A stretch of 64,000 nt of DNA from assembly GCF_005222785.1 (NCBI RefSeq), contig NZ_STGH01000001.1, positions 248,001-312,000 on the forward strand, written 5' to 3'. Below the pieces are notes generated by a model. It saw only the letters and a program-made list of their open reading frames with translations, did not search any database and was not told the origin of the DNA. A program made the position numbers and the translations under genes. Below are positions 24,759 to 30,148 of the stretch, piece after piece; position 1 is the first letter of the stretch, and the number at the start of each line of letters is the position of its first letter. This DNA comes from Rhodobacter sp. SY28-1. GTDB taxonomy: Bacteria; Pseudomonadota; Alphaproteobacteria; Rhodobacterales; Rhodobacteraceae.

Positions 24759-25340
24759 TCAGGTGTTGAGGGTGAAAAAGGAGCGGACCGCGATGGCGAT
24801 GTCCGCCGTGGCCTGTGAGAGGTCGACCTTGGTCTCGACCATTCCGAACCGGATGTAGACCTGACCTTCAGGGAGCGAGGGCTCTTCCTCGATCACCATC
24901 GGCAGTCCGGTTGCTTGCCTGACAAGATCTTCAACCTGCCCGCGAACCGCAGGATTGAGCACCAGGCTCAGCGGCGCATCGGCGAGCTCCTCGGCCAGCG
25001 GGGTGATCGCATCAAGGACAGTCGGGGCGAGCGATTCTCGGGCAACCTCGGGCAAAAGCCGATTGATCATTTCCAGGATCAGAGGCCGGATCGCCTGCAG
25101 GACATGGCTTCGGGCGTCCTGAAAGGTGAAGGCCAGGCTTTGCAAGTTGCGCGCCAGATCGGCCCGGATGCGCATCTGGTCGCCCTGCTGCGCAGCAACT
25201 GCGTCATCCCAACCGGCAGAATATCCCTGCTCGAACGAGGCGACCTTGGCTTCTTCGACCAAGGCACCCTCGACCATCGGCTGTGTGGTGCCATCGCCGG
25301 CAATCGCCGTGTCAAAGACTTCCAGACGCAGTGCAGGCAT
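24759..25340 (-). CDS. fliH: Flagellar assembly protein FliH
   Basis: FliH regulates the export ATPase FliI and links it to the C-ring. The 193-residue protein shows the FliH/HrpE/YscL pattern: an N-terminal region with FEQGYSAGWDDAVAAQ, a helical middle (LARNLQSLAFTFQDARSHVL) and a C-terminal V-ATPase-E-like domain (LPEVARESLAPTVLDAITPL, then EGQVYIRFGMVETKVDLSQA). Its start shares a base with the stop of the chimera gene (TGATG at 25338-25342). fliI is not nearby. Confidence 0.8.
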   Translation of the reverse strand: MPALRLEVFDTAIAGDGTTQPMVEGALVEEAKVASFEQGYSAGWDDAVAAQQGDQMRIRADLARNLQSLAFTFQDARSHVLQAIRPLILEMINRLLPEVARESLAPTVLDAITPLAEELADAPLSLVLNPAVRGQVEDLVRQATGLPMVIEEEPSLPEGQVYIRFGMVETKVDLSQATADIAIAVRSFFTLNT

Positions 25341-26722
25341 CAGGCGCGCTCCTCTTCATGCTCCATCCAGCCACGAAGGATCTCGATCGACTCGGTCTGC
25401 CGCTTTTCGATCAGGCGACGCAGACGGGTTGCTGGGTCCTCCTCCTCACCGTCAGCGGCATTTTCGCGGGTGACGTCGCCGCGAACATCCGCAAAAGCGC
25501 CGTAGTCAAAGCCGTTCTCAACCTCTCCGGTCAGGGCGATGCCACCCGGCACTGCGGCAGACGGCAGCGCCAACGGCGGGGTCGGAGCAGGCAGGGCCGG
25601 GCGATTTGCCGACGTCAGGATCGGCCGGATCACGAACAGCCCCAGAACCAGCGCCACCAAGGCAAGAACCACTGTCTGAATGATCGTCATCACATCCATC
25701 TGGCCGATTGGCGGGATCAGGCTGGCGGTTGCTTCTGTCCCTGGAGGCACCGCAGTTTCCTGGAATTCCAGCGATTTGAGGGTCAGGACATCGCCCCGCG
25801 CCTCATCCAGGCCGACGGCAGACGCGACAAGTTCGCGCAGAGCTGCCAGTTCTTCGTCTGGCCGCGCCGCCCAGGTCCTTGTGCCGTCGGCGGCAATTGT
25901 GACGACGCCGTCGACCATTACCGCGACGGTCATGCGCCGCACGGCCCCGGGACTGCGCAGGATCTCGCGCTGAGTTTCCGACACTTCGTAGTTGACCCGC
26001 TCACGCGTTTCGGAGTTCTGGCTTCGGCCCTGACCGCCCCCGGTTGCATCGCCTTCCGGCAGGTTCGACGCCACCGTCACCTCACCTCCGGGTTCGGTGC
26101 TGGACCCGCTGCGTTCTTCCGTTTCCGAGGAAATCGCGACACGGCCCTGTGAGTCGAACTTGCGTTCGGTGATCGCCTCACGTTCGGAGTTCAGCTCAAT
26201 CGACACCTCGACGACGGCCTTGCCATCGCCCACGCGGGCTGCCAGCAGGCGTTCCACATTGCCTTTGATCGCAGCGGCCCGATCATCCGCACTGCCCGCG
26301 TTGAAGCCATCCGGTTCGCTGCCGCCGATCAGCCCCGCGACGGTGTCGATGATCTGGACCGCATCCGGTGTCATTCCCGCAACCGCGCTGGCGACAAGGT
26401 GCCGGATCGCACGCGCCTGAGCCTCGTCAAGGTTGCCGGAAACGGTGGTCAGCGTGACGGAGGCTGTTGGTTTCGCGTCCGGCTGGAACGCACGGGTCGG
26501 CGCGCTTGCGATATGCACGCGGGCGGCCTTGACCTGAGGGAGCGCAAGGAGCGTGCGGGCGATCTCTCCTTCCTTGGCGCGCCAGTAGGCGGCGTTGTCC
26601 TTGGCGCTGGCCACCGACTTGCCGGTAGAAATGTCCGCCTGAGTCTTGTTCAGGCTGGCGTTGATGCCCTTCATCGTCTGCAAGGCAACCATCGCGCTGG
26701 TATTGGTCAGGATCGACGACAT
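25340..26722 (-). CDS. Flagellin-FliF chimera (in-frame deletion scar)
   Basis: Residues 1-47 are the N-terminus of a flagellin (MSSILTNTSAMVALQTMKGI, then STGKSVASAKDNAAYW). From residue 48 the protein is FliF, the MS-ring protein, beginning at RAKEGEIARTLLALPQVKAA; this corresponds to the E. coli segment YQRALEGELART, about residue 140. FliF is then intact, with the second membrane helix (MDVMTIIQTVVLALVALVLG) and the FliG-binding end (RLIEKRQTESIEILRGWMEH). Missing are the flagellin core and C-terminus, FliF helix 1 and its first ring domains. GAAGGA lies 7 bases before the ATG at 26722, so the fusion uses a flagellin leader. Neither flagellin nor MS ring should work. Confidence 0.85.
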   Translation of the reverse strand: MSSILTNTSAMVALQTMKGINASLNKTQADISTGKSVASAKDNAAYWRAKEGEIARTLLALPQVKAARVHIASAPTRAFQPDAKPTASVTLTTVSGNLDEAQARAIRHLVASAVAGMTPDAVQIIDTVAGLIGGSEPDGFNAGSADDRAAAIKGNVERLLAARVGDGKAVVEVSIELNSEREAITERKFDSQGRVAISSETEERSGSSTEPGGEVTVASNLPEGDATGGGQGRSQNSETRERVNYEVSETQREILRSPGAVRRMTVAVMVDGVVTIAADGTRTWAARPDEELAALRELVASAVGLDEARGDVLTLKSLEFQETAVPPGTEATASLIPPIGQMDVMTIIQTVVLALVALVLGLFVIRPILTSANRPALPAPTPPLALPSAAVPGGIALTGEVENGFDYGAFADVRGDVTRENAADGEEEDPATRLRRLIEKRQTESIEILRGWMEHEEERA

Positions 26723-26917
26723 TACATAGTCCTTCACACAGGGCCGCAGGTTTCACGGCCGGGGAAGCCACAGATCGTGGCAGAAGGGGCGTTCTATCCG
26801 TGCTTGCCGGGGATCCGGAAAGCGCCGCCTCGTCATGAGGCGCACGACCAATCAGGCGATAAAGGCCCTAATCATTCCCTAATCCGGAGAGACCAAATGC
26901 CCCGAATTTGATTCACT

Positions 26918-27229
26918 TCACACACGACGAGACCGGGTCTCGGCGAGCGCGCTGATCTGGGCCTTCTGACCTCGCGAATCGTAGGTGGTCAGCGTTGGGC
27001 CTCGGACGACCTCGGAAAACCGCAGGCTGGCGGCCTTGACGCCCCGTGCGGCCGCATCAAGCAGGCGCTCGTTCCTAAGTGCCTTTTCGCGCAAGGCTTC
27101 AGCGGCGGGACGATCCCTTCCCGCCAGGCTTTGCGCTTCGATCTGTGGTGCAAGTCGGGCCAAGGCAGCAAAATCCCCGGCAATCAGCGCCGCTGCGACT
27201 TGGTCGAGAAGCGTCTCAAGCCTTTCCAT
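26918..27229 (-). CDS. Small helical flagellar protein, FlgN-like
   Basis: This 103-residue protein is nearly all helix (MERLETLLDQVAAALIAGDF, then AAEALREKALRNERLLDAAA) and ends SRGQKAQISALAETRSRRV. The size, the leucine spacing and the position next to flgJ suggest an FlgN-type export chaperone for hook-associated proteins, but the sequence match I can see is weak. It overlaps the rod-binding gene by 14 bases. A 195-bp leader separates it from the chimera gene. Confidence 0.55.
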   Translation of the reverse strand: MERLETLLDQVAAALIAGDFAALARLAPQIEAQSLAGRDRPAAEALREKALRNERLLDAAARGVKAASLRFSEVVRGPTLTTYDSRGQKAQISALAETRSRRV

Positions 27230-27488
27230 TTTCAGCCTCGGTCATCGAATTGAAGATGAGTTCGGCAAGACCGAGGCCGCCGTGTTGAACGATCAGCCTG
27301 GCCTGCTCCTGGCGGAGGAAAGAGGTGAACTGCGCCTCTCCTTGACCGCCTCCGAACGCGCCCTGCAGCTCGGACATGCCCGAGTGGGCCAGCATTTCCG
27401 AAAGGAAGGTGGCCTCCAGCTCCTCTGCCTTTGACATGAGTTGCTGCCGCCGTTGCGGTGTAAGCGAGGAGACGGGTGAAAGGTCCAT
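27216..27488 (-). CDS. Rod-binding protein, FlgJ N-terminal type
   Basis: The 90-residue product matches the rod-binding domain of FlgJ without a muramidase domain: LMSKAEELEATFLSEMLAHS, GMSELQGAFGGGQGEAQFTS and FLRQEQARLIVQHGGLGLAE. This short form is usual in alphaproteobacteria, where it helps rod assembly in the periplasm. The ATG at 27488 has GGAG eight bases upstream; the frame is open further but that part lies opposite fliK. It diverges from fliK. Confidence 0.82.
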   Translation of the reverse strand: MDLSPVSSLTPQRRQQLMSKAEELEATFLSEMLAHSGMSELQGAFGGGQGEAQFTSFLRQEQARLIVQHGGLGLAELIFNSMTEAENGKA

Positions 27489-27597
27489 TGCTTGCTCCGG
27501 AAAGTTCGGATTTTCGGCAACCATCTGGCAAGCGGGTAAAGATTGGGTAACTTCTGTTCGCGAGAAATGGGTCTGTTGCGGCAGAAGTCGTGGATCA

Positions 27598-29484
27598 ATG
27601 CAGAACCCTCTTGCTTTCCTTTCAGCAATCCCGCCCACAAGCGAGGGGCTCAGCGCGCCCCAGCCGGTCGAACCGGGCGATGGTTCCTTTGCCGAGGCAT
27701 TCGGCGACATTGCCTCGACCCAGGATACCGGGGCTCTGGCGATTGATGCCACAGGGACGGCCTTTCCAGGTCCAATGATCTTGGCCTGGCCGTTTCCGGG
27801 GCCTGCAATACCTGCGTTGGCGACGGGGTCGGCATCTGCCGTAGACATGTCTCTTAAGACTGAGGGGGAAAACGTCGAAGCCAAGCATAGCGTTTCGGAA
27901 GCGGTTTTGGGTGATGCCGGAAGCGACCCACTCATTGCGCTGCTGACCGACGAACCGGGCACACCGCCTGGTCTTCAGCCGTCCCTAGGATCGATGGTGG
28001 CGGAGTTTGCCGTGGGTAGGGAAGTGGGGTCAGTCAGCGACAATCCTGAAGTCCTATCAGGGCGGACAAGCCCTCCTGATCTGGCCAAGGAGGGATCAAC
28101 AACGGTCGACGGCCGCCCATTGCCCGAACCTGTTTCTGGAAAGTCAGTCTCCAGTCCGGCTGCGATTGCTGCTGCGCTCATCGTGCCGACAGAAGCTTCG
28201 AAGCCGGGCAATGCCGGAGTACCGCATGACATGTCGCGGCCCCTTGGCAGCAATTCTCCGTCTGATGAGAGTTCCATTGCATGCAGGGCCAGCAACAGCC
28301 AGCTCGTCGAGGAATACGGATCGACGCCAGTGCGGCCTCAGGCGAGTTCAATCGCGGACGTTTCGGAAGCGATGGAAGGTGCAATCACGCCGGGACGCGC
28401 TCCCTCCTCCCTGGTGAATGAAGGCCTTACCGAGTTGGAGCGAAGCGACAGCCCATTTGCTGGTCACCAGCCTCCGATGGCACAATTGCATCCTTCGCTG
28501 GATTCGCCAGGCCAGGTTCAGCGCACCCAAGTGTTGTCCGTGCCCCCCCAACCACCGGTTGCGCTTCAGCATTCACCCGAAAGTAGCCGGATCCTCGCTT
28601 CGGTCCTGTCGGTTGCTTCACGAGCCGAAATCAAAGCCGAACCCGACAAGCCGACGACAAGCTTTTGGGAGCGGTTCTTCTCGACACCAGATTCGCTCAC
28701 GTCGTCGAATTCCGGATCTGCGGTTAGTGGTTTGCAGACTTCCATTGCAATCGAAGCGGGACCTGTGGTCGAAGGCGGCGCGAACGATGGCCCGGCAGTC
28801 CCGATGTTTGTTGCGTCTGCGGGCGAGAAGGAACAGCCCGATACGACCTCGACCAAAGACCGGCCCGCGGAAGGACCAAAGCTCACCGCTTCGGGATTGT
28901 CGACGAACCTTCCCGAGGTCGGGGCCAGCAATTTCAATGGGTCCGTCTCCGGCTTGTTGTTCACGCCTTGGGTCGCCGATCATCCCTCAAGCGCCGGATG
29001 GACACAGGTGGCGGAGTCTCTTGCTTTGATCTCGCCGACCCATACTCCATCGACCATGCACAGCGGGTCGAACAACGCCCATGCACTGCATATCCCACAG
29101 GTCGCGTCACAGCTCTCGGATGTGCTGGTCCGCAATTCAAGCACGATGACTGAATTGGCCCTGGCACCTGAGGAGCTTGGCCACGTCCGACTTCGGATGG
29201 AGCCCGATTCCGCAAACCCGGATCGAATGATGATAATGATCAGCGTCGAGCGGCCAGAAACGCTTGATCTTTTCCGACGGCACGCTGGCGAGCTGGTCGA
29301 CGCCCTGCGGAATGCGGGCTACTCGGGTGCCGACATCGGCTTCAGCCAGGGCGGTCGGGAGGAGAGGTCTGAACATCAGAGAGAGCCCCGCGCTCTTGGA
29401 ACAGCCCTACCTTTCGACGACGCCAACCAGGCAGAAGTAACCCCGATGCGGTCGGTTGGCGCATCTCTCGATCTCAGACTGTGA
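27598..29484 (+). CDS. fliK: Flagellar hook-length control protein FliK
   Basis: The 628-residue protein has the FliK layout: a long, poorly conserved, Pro/Ser/Thr-rich N-terminal ruler and a compact C-terminal domain. The latter reads MTELALAPEELGHVRLRMEP and then VERPETLDLFRRHAGELVDA, the Flg_hook signature. The ruler is of low complexity, and its codon use is visibly less GC-biased than that of the neighbours. The ATG at 27598 is the first that fits, but its ribosome-binding site is poor, so the exact start is uncertain. It is followed seven bases later by flgD. Confidence 0.85.
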   Translation: MQNPLAFLSAIPPTSEGLSAPQPVEPGDGSFAEAFGDIASTQDTGALAIDATGTAFPGPMILAWPFPGPAIPALATGSASAVDMSLKTEGENVEAKHSVSEAVLGDAGSDPLIALLTDEPGTPPGLQPSLGSMVAEFAVGREVGSVSDNPEVLSGRTSPPDLAKEGSTTVDGRPLPEPVSGKSVSSPAAIAAALIVPTEASKPGNAGVPHDMSRPLGSNSPSDESSIACRASNSQLVEEYGSTPVRPQASSIADVSEAMEGAITPGRAPSSLVNEGLTELERSDSPFAGHQPPMAQLHPSLDSPGQVQRTQVLSVPPQPPVALQHSPESSRILASVLSVASRAEIKAEPDKPTTSFWERFFSTPDSLTSSNSGSAVSGLQTSIAIEAGPVVEGGANDGPAVPMFVASAGEKEQPDTTSTKDRPAEGPKLTASGLSTNLPEVGASNFNGSVSGLLFTPWVADHPSSAGWTQVAESLALISPTHTPSTMHSGSNNAHALHIPQVASQLSDVLVRNSSTMTELALAPEELGHVRLRMEPDSANPDRMMIMISVERPETLDLFRRHAGELVDALRNAGYSGADIGFSQGGREERSEHQREPRALGTALPFDDANQAEVTPMRSVGASLDLRL

Positions 29485-29491
29485 GGAAAGC

Positions 29492-30148
29492 ATGGACGTC
29501 TCTTCGGTCAATCCTGTTGCGGCCTCGGCCAACAGTGCCGCCGCTCCGTCGAAGATCACTTCGGACTTCAACACCTTCCTGCGGATGCTGACGGTTCAGA
29601 TGCAGAATCAGGATCCGCTGAACCCGATTGATTCCGCCGACTATGCCGTCCAGTTGGCGACCTTTTCAGGGGTCGAGCAGCAAGTGCGCACCAACCAGTT
29701 GCTTGCCGATCTTCAAGGCAGGTTCCAGCAGCTGGGCATGGCCGAAATGGCAAGCTGGATCGGCAAGGAAGCCCGGTCGAATGCGCCGATCCTGTATGAG
29801 GGGACTCCGGTCACGCTGTCGCCCAATCCAGCCGTGGGGTCGACCCGGGCGGTGCTGGCGGTTCGGGACAGCGCTGGCAACCTTGTATCCCGGGAGGAGA
29901 TCCCCGTCAGCACCGAGCCCTACCAATGGCTTGGGGGCGGAACCGACGGCTCGCCACTTCCGCCCGGCATCTACACCATCGAACTGGAGAGTCTGAACGG
30001 CGAGACCCTGCTCGATTCCCGTCCCGTAGAGCATTACGCGCGGGTGGTGGAAGCCAAGGGCGGCAGCGCTGGCACGACGCTGGTTCTGGCTGGCGGGATC
30101 GAGGTACTTGCGACGAACGTCACGGCCCTCCGCAGCCCGACGAACTGA
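29492..30148 (+). CDS. flgD: Flagellar hook assembly scaffold FlgD
   Basis: FlgD caps the growing hook. The 218-residue protein has the diagnostic N-terminal segment FNTFLRMLTVQMQNQDPLNP, followed by DYAVQLATFSGVEQQVRTNQ, and a C-terminal FlgD Ig/tudor-like region (LAVRDSAGNLVSREEIPVS). GAGGAA precedes the ATG at 29492. It is complete and in one transcript with fliK. Confidence 0.95.
   Translation: MDVSSVNPVAASANSAAAPSKITSDFNTFLRMLTVQMQNQDPLNPIDSADYAVQLATFSGVEQQVRTNQLLADLQGRFQQLGMAEMASWIGKEARSNAPILYEGTPVTLSPNPAVGSTRAVLAVRDSAGNLVSREEIPVSTEPYQWLGGGTDGSPLPPGIYTIELESLNGETLLDSRPVEHYARVVEAKGGSAGTTLVLAGGIEVLATNVTALRSPTN

Follow-up and report, generated by a model that had tools for sequence, protein, structure and literature searches.

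An identical in-frame fusion of flagellin and FliF recurs in the genus Tabrizicola and marks flagellar loss at a putative deletion hotspot

In the genus Tabrizicola, one and the same in-frame fusion of flagellin and the flagellar ring protein FliF is present in several species, and in the genomes that carry it the flagellar genes that lie between fliC and fliF in intact relatives are missing. It is very probable that this is a real and recurrent deletion. We propose that the flagellum is lost again and again at a putative deletion hotspot that is specific for this genus, and we assign a probability of about 0.45 to this statement as a whole. According to this idea, a large deletion would occur between fliC and fliF, which in most intact relatives point the same way and bound the main flagellar cluster on either side, and would leave a non-flagellated cell with an in-frame gene for residues 1-43 of flagellin and for FliF from RBM2 onwards. 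A process of breakage, joining or recombination would repeatedly link these two places; the chimera would be a by-product, and the loss of motility would be tolerated or favoured for a while. The first-pass annotation of this DNA, which is partly supported by our work, had omitted the main point: the same fusion recurs across the genus and is not a single event.

Results

The window (the whole stretch of 64,000 nucleotides that was analysed) stems from a genome that was placed in the genus Tabrizicola and that is called G000 here; the other G numbers designate genomes of relatives, and P numbers designate protein clusters. The features of the flagellar island are listed in Table 1. According to Pfam, the chimera contains Flagellin_N at residues 4-48, YscJ_FliF at residues 29-129 (with the profile matched from position 69) and FliF_C at residues 160-320. 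On the flagellin side, the N-terminal D0 helix is present (PF00669, positions 1-45 of 139), and D1 as well as the C-terminal D0 helix are missing: the sole PF00700 match of G000 is the gene at the flgL position (C1:709901), in agreement with the earlier claim that flagellin has lost its core and its C-terminus. On the FliF side, the FliF_C and RBM3 region is present (PF08345, 1-147/147, E 2.6e-37), and the N-terminal membrane helix and RBM1 are missing, as had also been claimed: PF01514 is matched only from profile position 69, and a query with the FliF N-terminus had no match in G000. The retention of the flagellin leader and its ribosome-binding site is borne out by the resemblance of this segment to the leaders of intact fliC genes.

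Table 1. Features of the flagellar island in the window
Feature	Positions	Strand	Basis and remarks
fliP, 241 aa	23759..24484	(-)	Pfam
fliN, 89 aa	24481..24750	(-)	Pfam
fliH-position gene, 193 aa	24759..25340	(-)	overlaps chimera stop; position conserved in relatives; no Pfam match
flagellin::FliF chimera, 460 aa	25340..26722	(-)	open frame from the flagellin ATG; same fusion in G005, G009, G018
FliF-derived part from Y46: RBM2, RBM3, second membrane helix, C-terminal tail	25340..26587	(-)	by homology; RBM1 and the first membrane helix are absent
junction, two alanine codons GCC GCC (A44-A45)	26588..26593	(-)	common to fliC (KDNAAVW) and fliF (FDAAYW)
flagellin-derived codons 1-43 (MSSILTN...KDN)	26594..26722	(-)	same frame and closely similar codons compared with intact fliC of the genus
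fliC leader with ribosome-binding site, retained	26723..26900	(-)	resembles leaders of intact fliC; tree of leader and flagellin start groups G000 with G021
FlgN-like gene	26918..27229	(-)	weak Pfam match below cut-off; by synteny, upstream of fliC in intact relatives
rod-binding (FlgJ/CheL-like) ORF	27216..27962	(-)	true start probably well downstream, compare G008, G021
fliK ORF	27376..29484	(+)	true start uncertain
flgD	29456..30148	(+)	Pfam

The position of the join can be given to the codon. Flagellin of the intact relatives reads KDNAAVWAISKVM with small variants (KDNAAVW or RDNAAVW among the intact flagellins of the genus that were read), and their FliF reads SQMFDAAYWRAKEGE, again with small variants (FDAAYW or FDAAYL). 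Thus, Y46 and W47 belong to FliF, and the join falls on two shared alanine codons, which are GCCGCC in all four fused genomes (G000, G005, G009 and G018). The earlier division of the protein into 47 residues of flagellin and a remainder of FliF is therefore correct as to the fusion as such, with its open frame and the Pfam domains of both partners, but not as to the border: the flagellin portion comprises residues 1-43. Y46 of the chimera aligns with Y132 of the solved FliF structure 6scn, which we take to be the Salmonella protein, and the join corresponds to about residue 129-131 there. An entry of the same sequence, 6SD1, serves as the FliF structure in PMC8786727, and the domain limits stated there are 50-124 for RBM1 and 124-229 for RBM2. 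The chimera thus starts just inside RBM2, without membrane helix 1 and RBM1.

The other genes of the island, i. e. fliP, fliN, the fliH-position gene, the rod-binding gene, fliK and flgD, are all open, as the first-pass annotation had stated. The ORFs of the rod-binding gene and of fliK overlap by about 590 bases on opposite strands; by comparison with the sequences of G008 and G021, both starts have probably been called too far upstream.

The same fusion, open throughout, was found in three of 40 relatives (G005, G009 and G018) with 83-84% identity. Within the genus Tabrizicola, 4 of 32 genomes are fused and 27 have an intact or contig-cut fliF; there was no match in G010, which is 59% complete. 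Two protein searches listed 146 FliF clusters, 19 of them fused, 124 intact and three other, a share of fusions that is biased upward by the use of fusions as queries and for which 4 of the 31 genus genomes with any match is the fairer figure. All 19 fused clusters have the identical amino-acid join. The three other clusters are P0013 and P0110, which start at the FliF site or close to it, and P0245, a variant of the intact protein. P0013 is a FliF protein of 422 aa that starts with MSPSF and is joined at the same AAYW, possibly a second partner at the same FliF breakpoint. The second of the protein searches, which started from a distant fusion, gave the same 19 fusions and none further among its best 120 matches. 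The family was surveyed with one genome per genus (218 genomes, threshold for a FliF match 1e-60), and 147 genomes had a match: G000, G001 and 145 genomes from other genera. Start positions and frame lengths indicate the fusion in none of these 145, with G055 and G166 too incomplete to judge. The fusion is neither unique nor an assembly error, and the same join in three other species assemblies and in 18 other protein clusters (two sets that overlap, as at least P0009 is one of those assemblies) confirms that it is real and far beyond chance. The search for a carrier of the chimera gave nothing among viral contigs and phages; among plasmids, 221 records matched, and the 12 that were listed show either ordinary FliF or a distant match without annotation.

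What has been lost becomes visible by comparison with intact clusters. There, the fliF and fliC sites are in direct orientation and 18,769 (G008), 18,869 (G014), 22,567 (G015) or 38,116 bases (G021) apart. In 12 of the 14 intact genomes that have fliF and fliC on one contig, order and orientation are the same; the exceptions are G002 with another order and G004 with the genes on opposite strands. Where the flanks are present, G000, G005 and G009 share with these four intact genomes the same gene order from the housekeeping genes beyond fliP to flgD, and the interval is missing; the contig of G018 is too short for this comparison, and the flank of G021 differs beyond fliP. These syntenic flanks and the missing interval uphold the earlier reading of a deletion scar within a flagellar island. 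In G008, the interval contains fliL-like genes, motA, flhA, fliR, flhB, flgH, flgA, fliQ and fliI, and in addition two rod genes of the FlgE/F/G type, a small rod gene, a DUF1217 gene and several genes matching nothing. The DNA from flhA to fliI (11.6 kb, a span that leaves motA outside) was found in all four intact genomes searched; among the fused genomes, G009 has a distant match and the other three have none. Likewise, the four fused genomes yielded no FliF N-terminus except the distant FliF of a second system in G009, and no flagellin C-terminus except matches at the flgL position in G000, G009 and G018.

A hook or filament cannot be built without the export gate, and the fused strains should therefore not swim. 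As far as the genome sequence can tell, this holds for G000, and the earlier expectation that the cell should lack flagella is supported: in the genome (4.28 Mb, 11 contigs, 98.9% complete), the searches found no second FliF, no second flagellin N-terminus, no flhA-to-fliI stretch and, apart from one match at the flgL position, no flagellin C-terminus. The fused cell would be unable to build a flagellum. A second flagellar system that might keep the leftover genes of G000 alive was not found in the searches of the genome with FliF, flagellin and the flhA-to-fliI stretch. The proposed check of the genome for other copies of fliC, fliF, flhA and fliI hence gave none, and flgE is retained at a second, open locus (C1:705390-711207) that contains motB, flgE, flgK, flgL and flgI at full length, names that were assigned by length, position and Pfam matches. 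G005 is without this locus, which is lost or absent in an assembly that is 94% complete; this may be a later step of decay. Distant second FliF proteins are encoded in G009 (C5:28383-29975) and G022 (C29:55843-56934) with 35% and 38% identity, respectively, G009 being the only one among the fused genomes. An flhA-like match is located on the same contig as the second FliF of G009, and a flagellin-like match is present in G022; a second flagellar system is likely in both.

Two further observations concern the flagella of the genus. In G021 (T. thermarum), the flagellar cluster is enlarged by about 20 kb of DNA, located between fliI and the genes that adjoin fliC (L110:11862-20000 and L111:1-10762), which by eye resembles sulfur-oxidation genes with transposase-like ORFs at both ends. 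This DNA is not at the junction, and a mobile island was rejected as the cause of the deletion. No CheW domain was found in any of the nine genus genomes searched (G000, G005, G009, G018, G021, G008, G015, G011 and G006), and the flagella of the genus may run without the classical chemotaxis pathway. The cells of Rhodobacter calidifons 'appear to be motile', in the words of the description in PMC9231093.

Several lines of evidence bear on the number of events. In a tree of the FliF part with 41 sequences (19 fused, 22 intact), the state changes 15 times, and 11 of these changes are forced by supported branches; a single fused clade is rejected (delta lnL 833, p-AU 1.7e-12). A FliF tree with 120 sequences also requires 15 changes, 10 of them forced. 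If lost DNA does not return, these changes are separate losses. In a tree of four housekeeping genes, G000, G005 and G009 are on three supported branches among intact species; this tree omits G018, which has too few genes, and G021, and stop codons in some of the pieces cut by tblastn were treated as gaps. On both kinds of trees, plain vertical inheritance from one origin is rejected. The evidence from the flagellin side is ambiguous and does not by itself show that the events are independent: its tree pairs G000 with the intact G021, and G005 with G018, but does not resolve G009, and the fusion label needs only two changes there, as few as in 9 of 500 shuffles. Moreover, in the 135-nt flagellin part, the nearest neighbour of every fused genome is one of the other three. 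However, in the 29 genomes compared, the first 45 flagellin codons (26588-26722 in the window) are conserved at silent positions, with third-position differences of 0.04-0.22 as compared to about 0.12-0.64 in neighbouring genes, which suggests a constraint on RNA or expression. As the silent sites of this stretch hardly vary among intact species either, nearest neighbours in it are of little informative value. If one allele had spread by recombination, a zone of similarity would be expected around the join. In the FliF part, however, third-position differences at the join are as high as elsewhere, and G000, G005 and G009 have no peak of similarity. For lack of such a peak, the idea that the junction was moved between species by recombination was rejected. 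In addition, two fusions with AAYL sit in a clade whose intact FliF proteins (P0098 and P0103) also have AAYL. Taken together, the data point to about ten or more independent deletion events, with P0011/P0017, P0037/P0061, P0045/P0057 and perhaps G005/G018 as pairs that may each share one event.

The leftover genes have hardly decayed. In pairwise NG86 comparisons, in which some dS values are near saturation, the dN/dS ratios of fliF-C, fliH, fliN, fliP, flgN, the rod-binding gene and flgD (where available) are close to each other in fused and intact pairs; for fliF-C, the ratio is 0.12 for G005-G018 as compared to 0.06-0.14 between intact pairs. The same is true for motB, flgE, flgK, flgL and flgI of G000, G009 and G018. 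A few values exceed the intact range: flgN has 0.31-0.45 in some pairs with G005 or G009 (intact pairs: 0.15-0.29), and flgE reaches 0.109 in fused pairs (intact pairs: 0.042-0.070). Sites that are invariant in intact proteins are broken at a rate of 72 per 1000 in the fused FliF parts and of 75 per 1000 in the intact controls (summed over 19 sequences). Unique changes number 346 in the fused FliF parts and 287 in their nearest intact relatives, a gap that is mainly due to P0027 (49 vs 8). With open frames and these ratios, the genes do not look like decayed remnants. Hook and filament-junction proteins are useless without the export gate, yet they are constrained, and each deletion should therefore be young on the scale of species divergence. 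This fits the earlier suggestion of a recent event, no examined leftover gene being broken.

The DNA at the two sites offers little that could single out this join. In 24 intact species, the two sites are exactly identical over 2-8 nt. In 20 of these species, the surroundings of both sites contain longer in-frame matches, the species without a longer one being G004, G006, G020 and G041; the best local microhomology can thus have chosen the join in at most four of the 24. Counted along the whole fliC and fliF genes, exact pairs of at least 8 nt number 58-87 in 11 intact species and 16 in G006, where a contig end truncates fliC, and in 10 of 12 intact species about 2,000 or more pairs of 14-mers are as good as the junction. 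No long direct repeat was found between fliC and fliF. At both sites, silent positions vary between the species, so that no conserved or fixed DNA site, as expected for a locus of site-specific recombination, is visible at the join. As all four fused genomes have GCCGCC at the join, their parents may have shared an identity of 7-8 nt, and ordinary microhomology may then have a larger share than we allow; a homology of 7-8 nt does not single out the observed join.

Discussion

Four other explanations were weighed against the deletion hotspot, and the main rival is selection for the chimera. Flagellar deletions would then be random, and only those that create this in-frame protein of the flagellin N-terminus, RBM2, RBM3 and the second membrane helix would be retained, for example as a deregulated FliF fragment under the flagellin promoter. 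The identical amino-acid join in all 19 fused clusters despite the short DNA identity in intact species and the undiminished constraint on the FliF part are in favour of this idea, and the best argument is the position of the join at the boundary of RBM1 and RBM2: membrane helix 1 and RBM1 are removed, and RBM1 is reported to block the oligomerisation of RBM2 (PMC8786727). However, flgE, flgK, flgL and flgD, which are useless without the export gate, are about equally constrained, pointing to youth rather than to function. Moreover, selection at the protein level would tolerate neighbouring codons, and no such join is present among the 19 fused clusters. Without membrane helix 1 or a signal peptide, RBM2 and RBM3 should remain in the cytosol. 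We regard selection as possible but rather unlikely. The hotspot is favoured over it for two reasons: judging from genes that have nothing to do with the chimera, the state seems too young for a function to be demonstrated, and nearby in-frame joins, which should give equally good proteins, have not been seen. A stricter form of the hotspot, in which a dedicated process of the genus excises the flagellar cluster at one fixed codon pair and acts as a programmed one-way switch from swimming to non-swimming lineages without a conserved site or useful homology, seems clearly unlikely to us.

It would also be conceivable that one old fusion allele was passed between species, e. g. by gene transfer agents, and replaced the intact locus each time. 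The confinement of the fusion to one genus with the same join everywhere, the mutual proximity of the fused genomes in the flagellin part with its two label changes, and the fact that G005 and G018 are closest in the chimera and not clearly so in fliH, fliN, flgN and flgJ would be in line with such a spread. But intact species, too, show little silent variation in the flagellin stretch, similarity between G000, G005 and G009 does not peak on the FliF side of the join, the fusions are dispersed over the housekeeping tree and the FliF tree, and clade-specific residues (AAYL; GEI/GEL; GKN) are found only about 9-30 nt from the join, so that transfer tracts of less than about 60 nt would be needed, repeatedly; we judge this spread to be improbable. 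A reversible or programmed excision, with the interval leaving as a circle that bears the reciprocal junction of the FliF N-terminus and the flagellin C-terminus and that can return, would let both forms coexist. It would account for fusions that are scattered at the tips with little or no decay, and in P0013 these FliF residues are joined to a different partner. Moreover, the contig G046:C167 (L129:1) of a metagenome-assembled genome that also holds fliC begins exactly at the FliF site. The assembly may have forked here between the intact and the deleted form; the partner contig, however, ends about 85 codons away as estimated by eye, which makes the evidence weak. No reciprocal chimera was present among the best 120 of 7890 matches, these 120 being flagellins, G000 is without the flhA-to-fliI stretch, and the nearest examined intact cluster is 6-25% away for each of the 19 fused clusters. 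Reversible excision is thus quite improbable. Finally, three of the four fused genomes match metagenome-assembled records, which would favour an assembly artefact, and the first-pass annotation had considered an error at the join. The presence of the same join in four genome assemblies and in protein clusters of several origins (NCBI, JGI, ENA and one more source) makes this very unlikely, and the identity at the join is too short to mislead assemblers; in the window, the join is inside a contig of 1.8 Mb. We give an artefact next to no chance.

The parallel loss of motility is common, and the loss of flagella is ordinary. It is the recurrence of the fusion, beyond the deletion scar itself, that is of interest, since it points to a process or an advantage that remakes the same cut. 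If the hotspot is true, it would represent a directed deletion process of a new type; if selection is true, a new gene would have been born repeatedly where two FliF domains meet. Simple experiments in an environmental genus can tell hotspot and selection apart. To our knowledge, there is no precedent for parallel loss via one exact in-frame fusion in about ten or more lineages of one genus, and no case was described in the open-licence literature found on such fusions or deletions or on the flagella of the genus.

Deletion hotspots occur at short direct repeats. As in these hotspots, two short similar sequences in direct orientation are joined in register in Tabrizicola; unlike there, the identity is as short as 2-8 nt (24 intact relatives) over 18.8-38.1 kb, and longer repeat pairs are not used. 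The flagellar loci of Brucella ovis carry many different small frameshifts and deletions (PMC7410920). Both cases have in common that flagellar loci are damaged and that the loss of a working flagellum is expected, whereas in Tabrizicola one identical large deletion recurs and the examined leftover genes are open. Fusions of FliF and FliG build rings (PMC6079021 and PMC11481574). They resemble the chimera in that a flagellar ring protein is fused to another flagellar protein. In contrast to these ring-building fusions, the chimera has a flagellin leader and is devoid of RBM1 and the first membrane helix.
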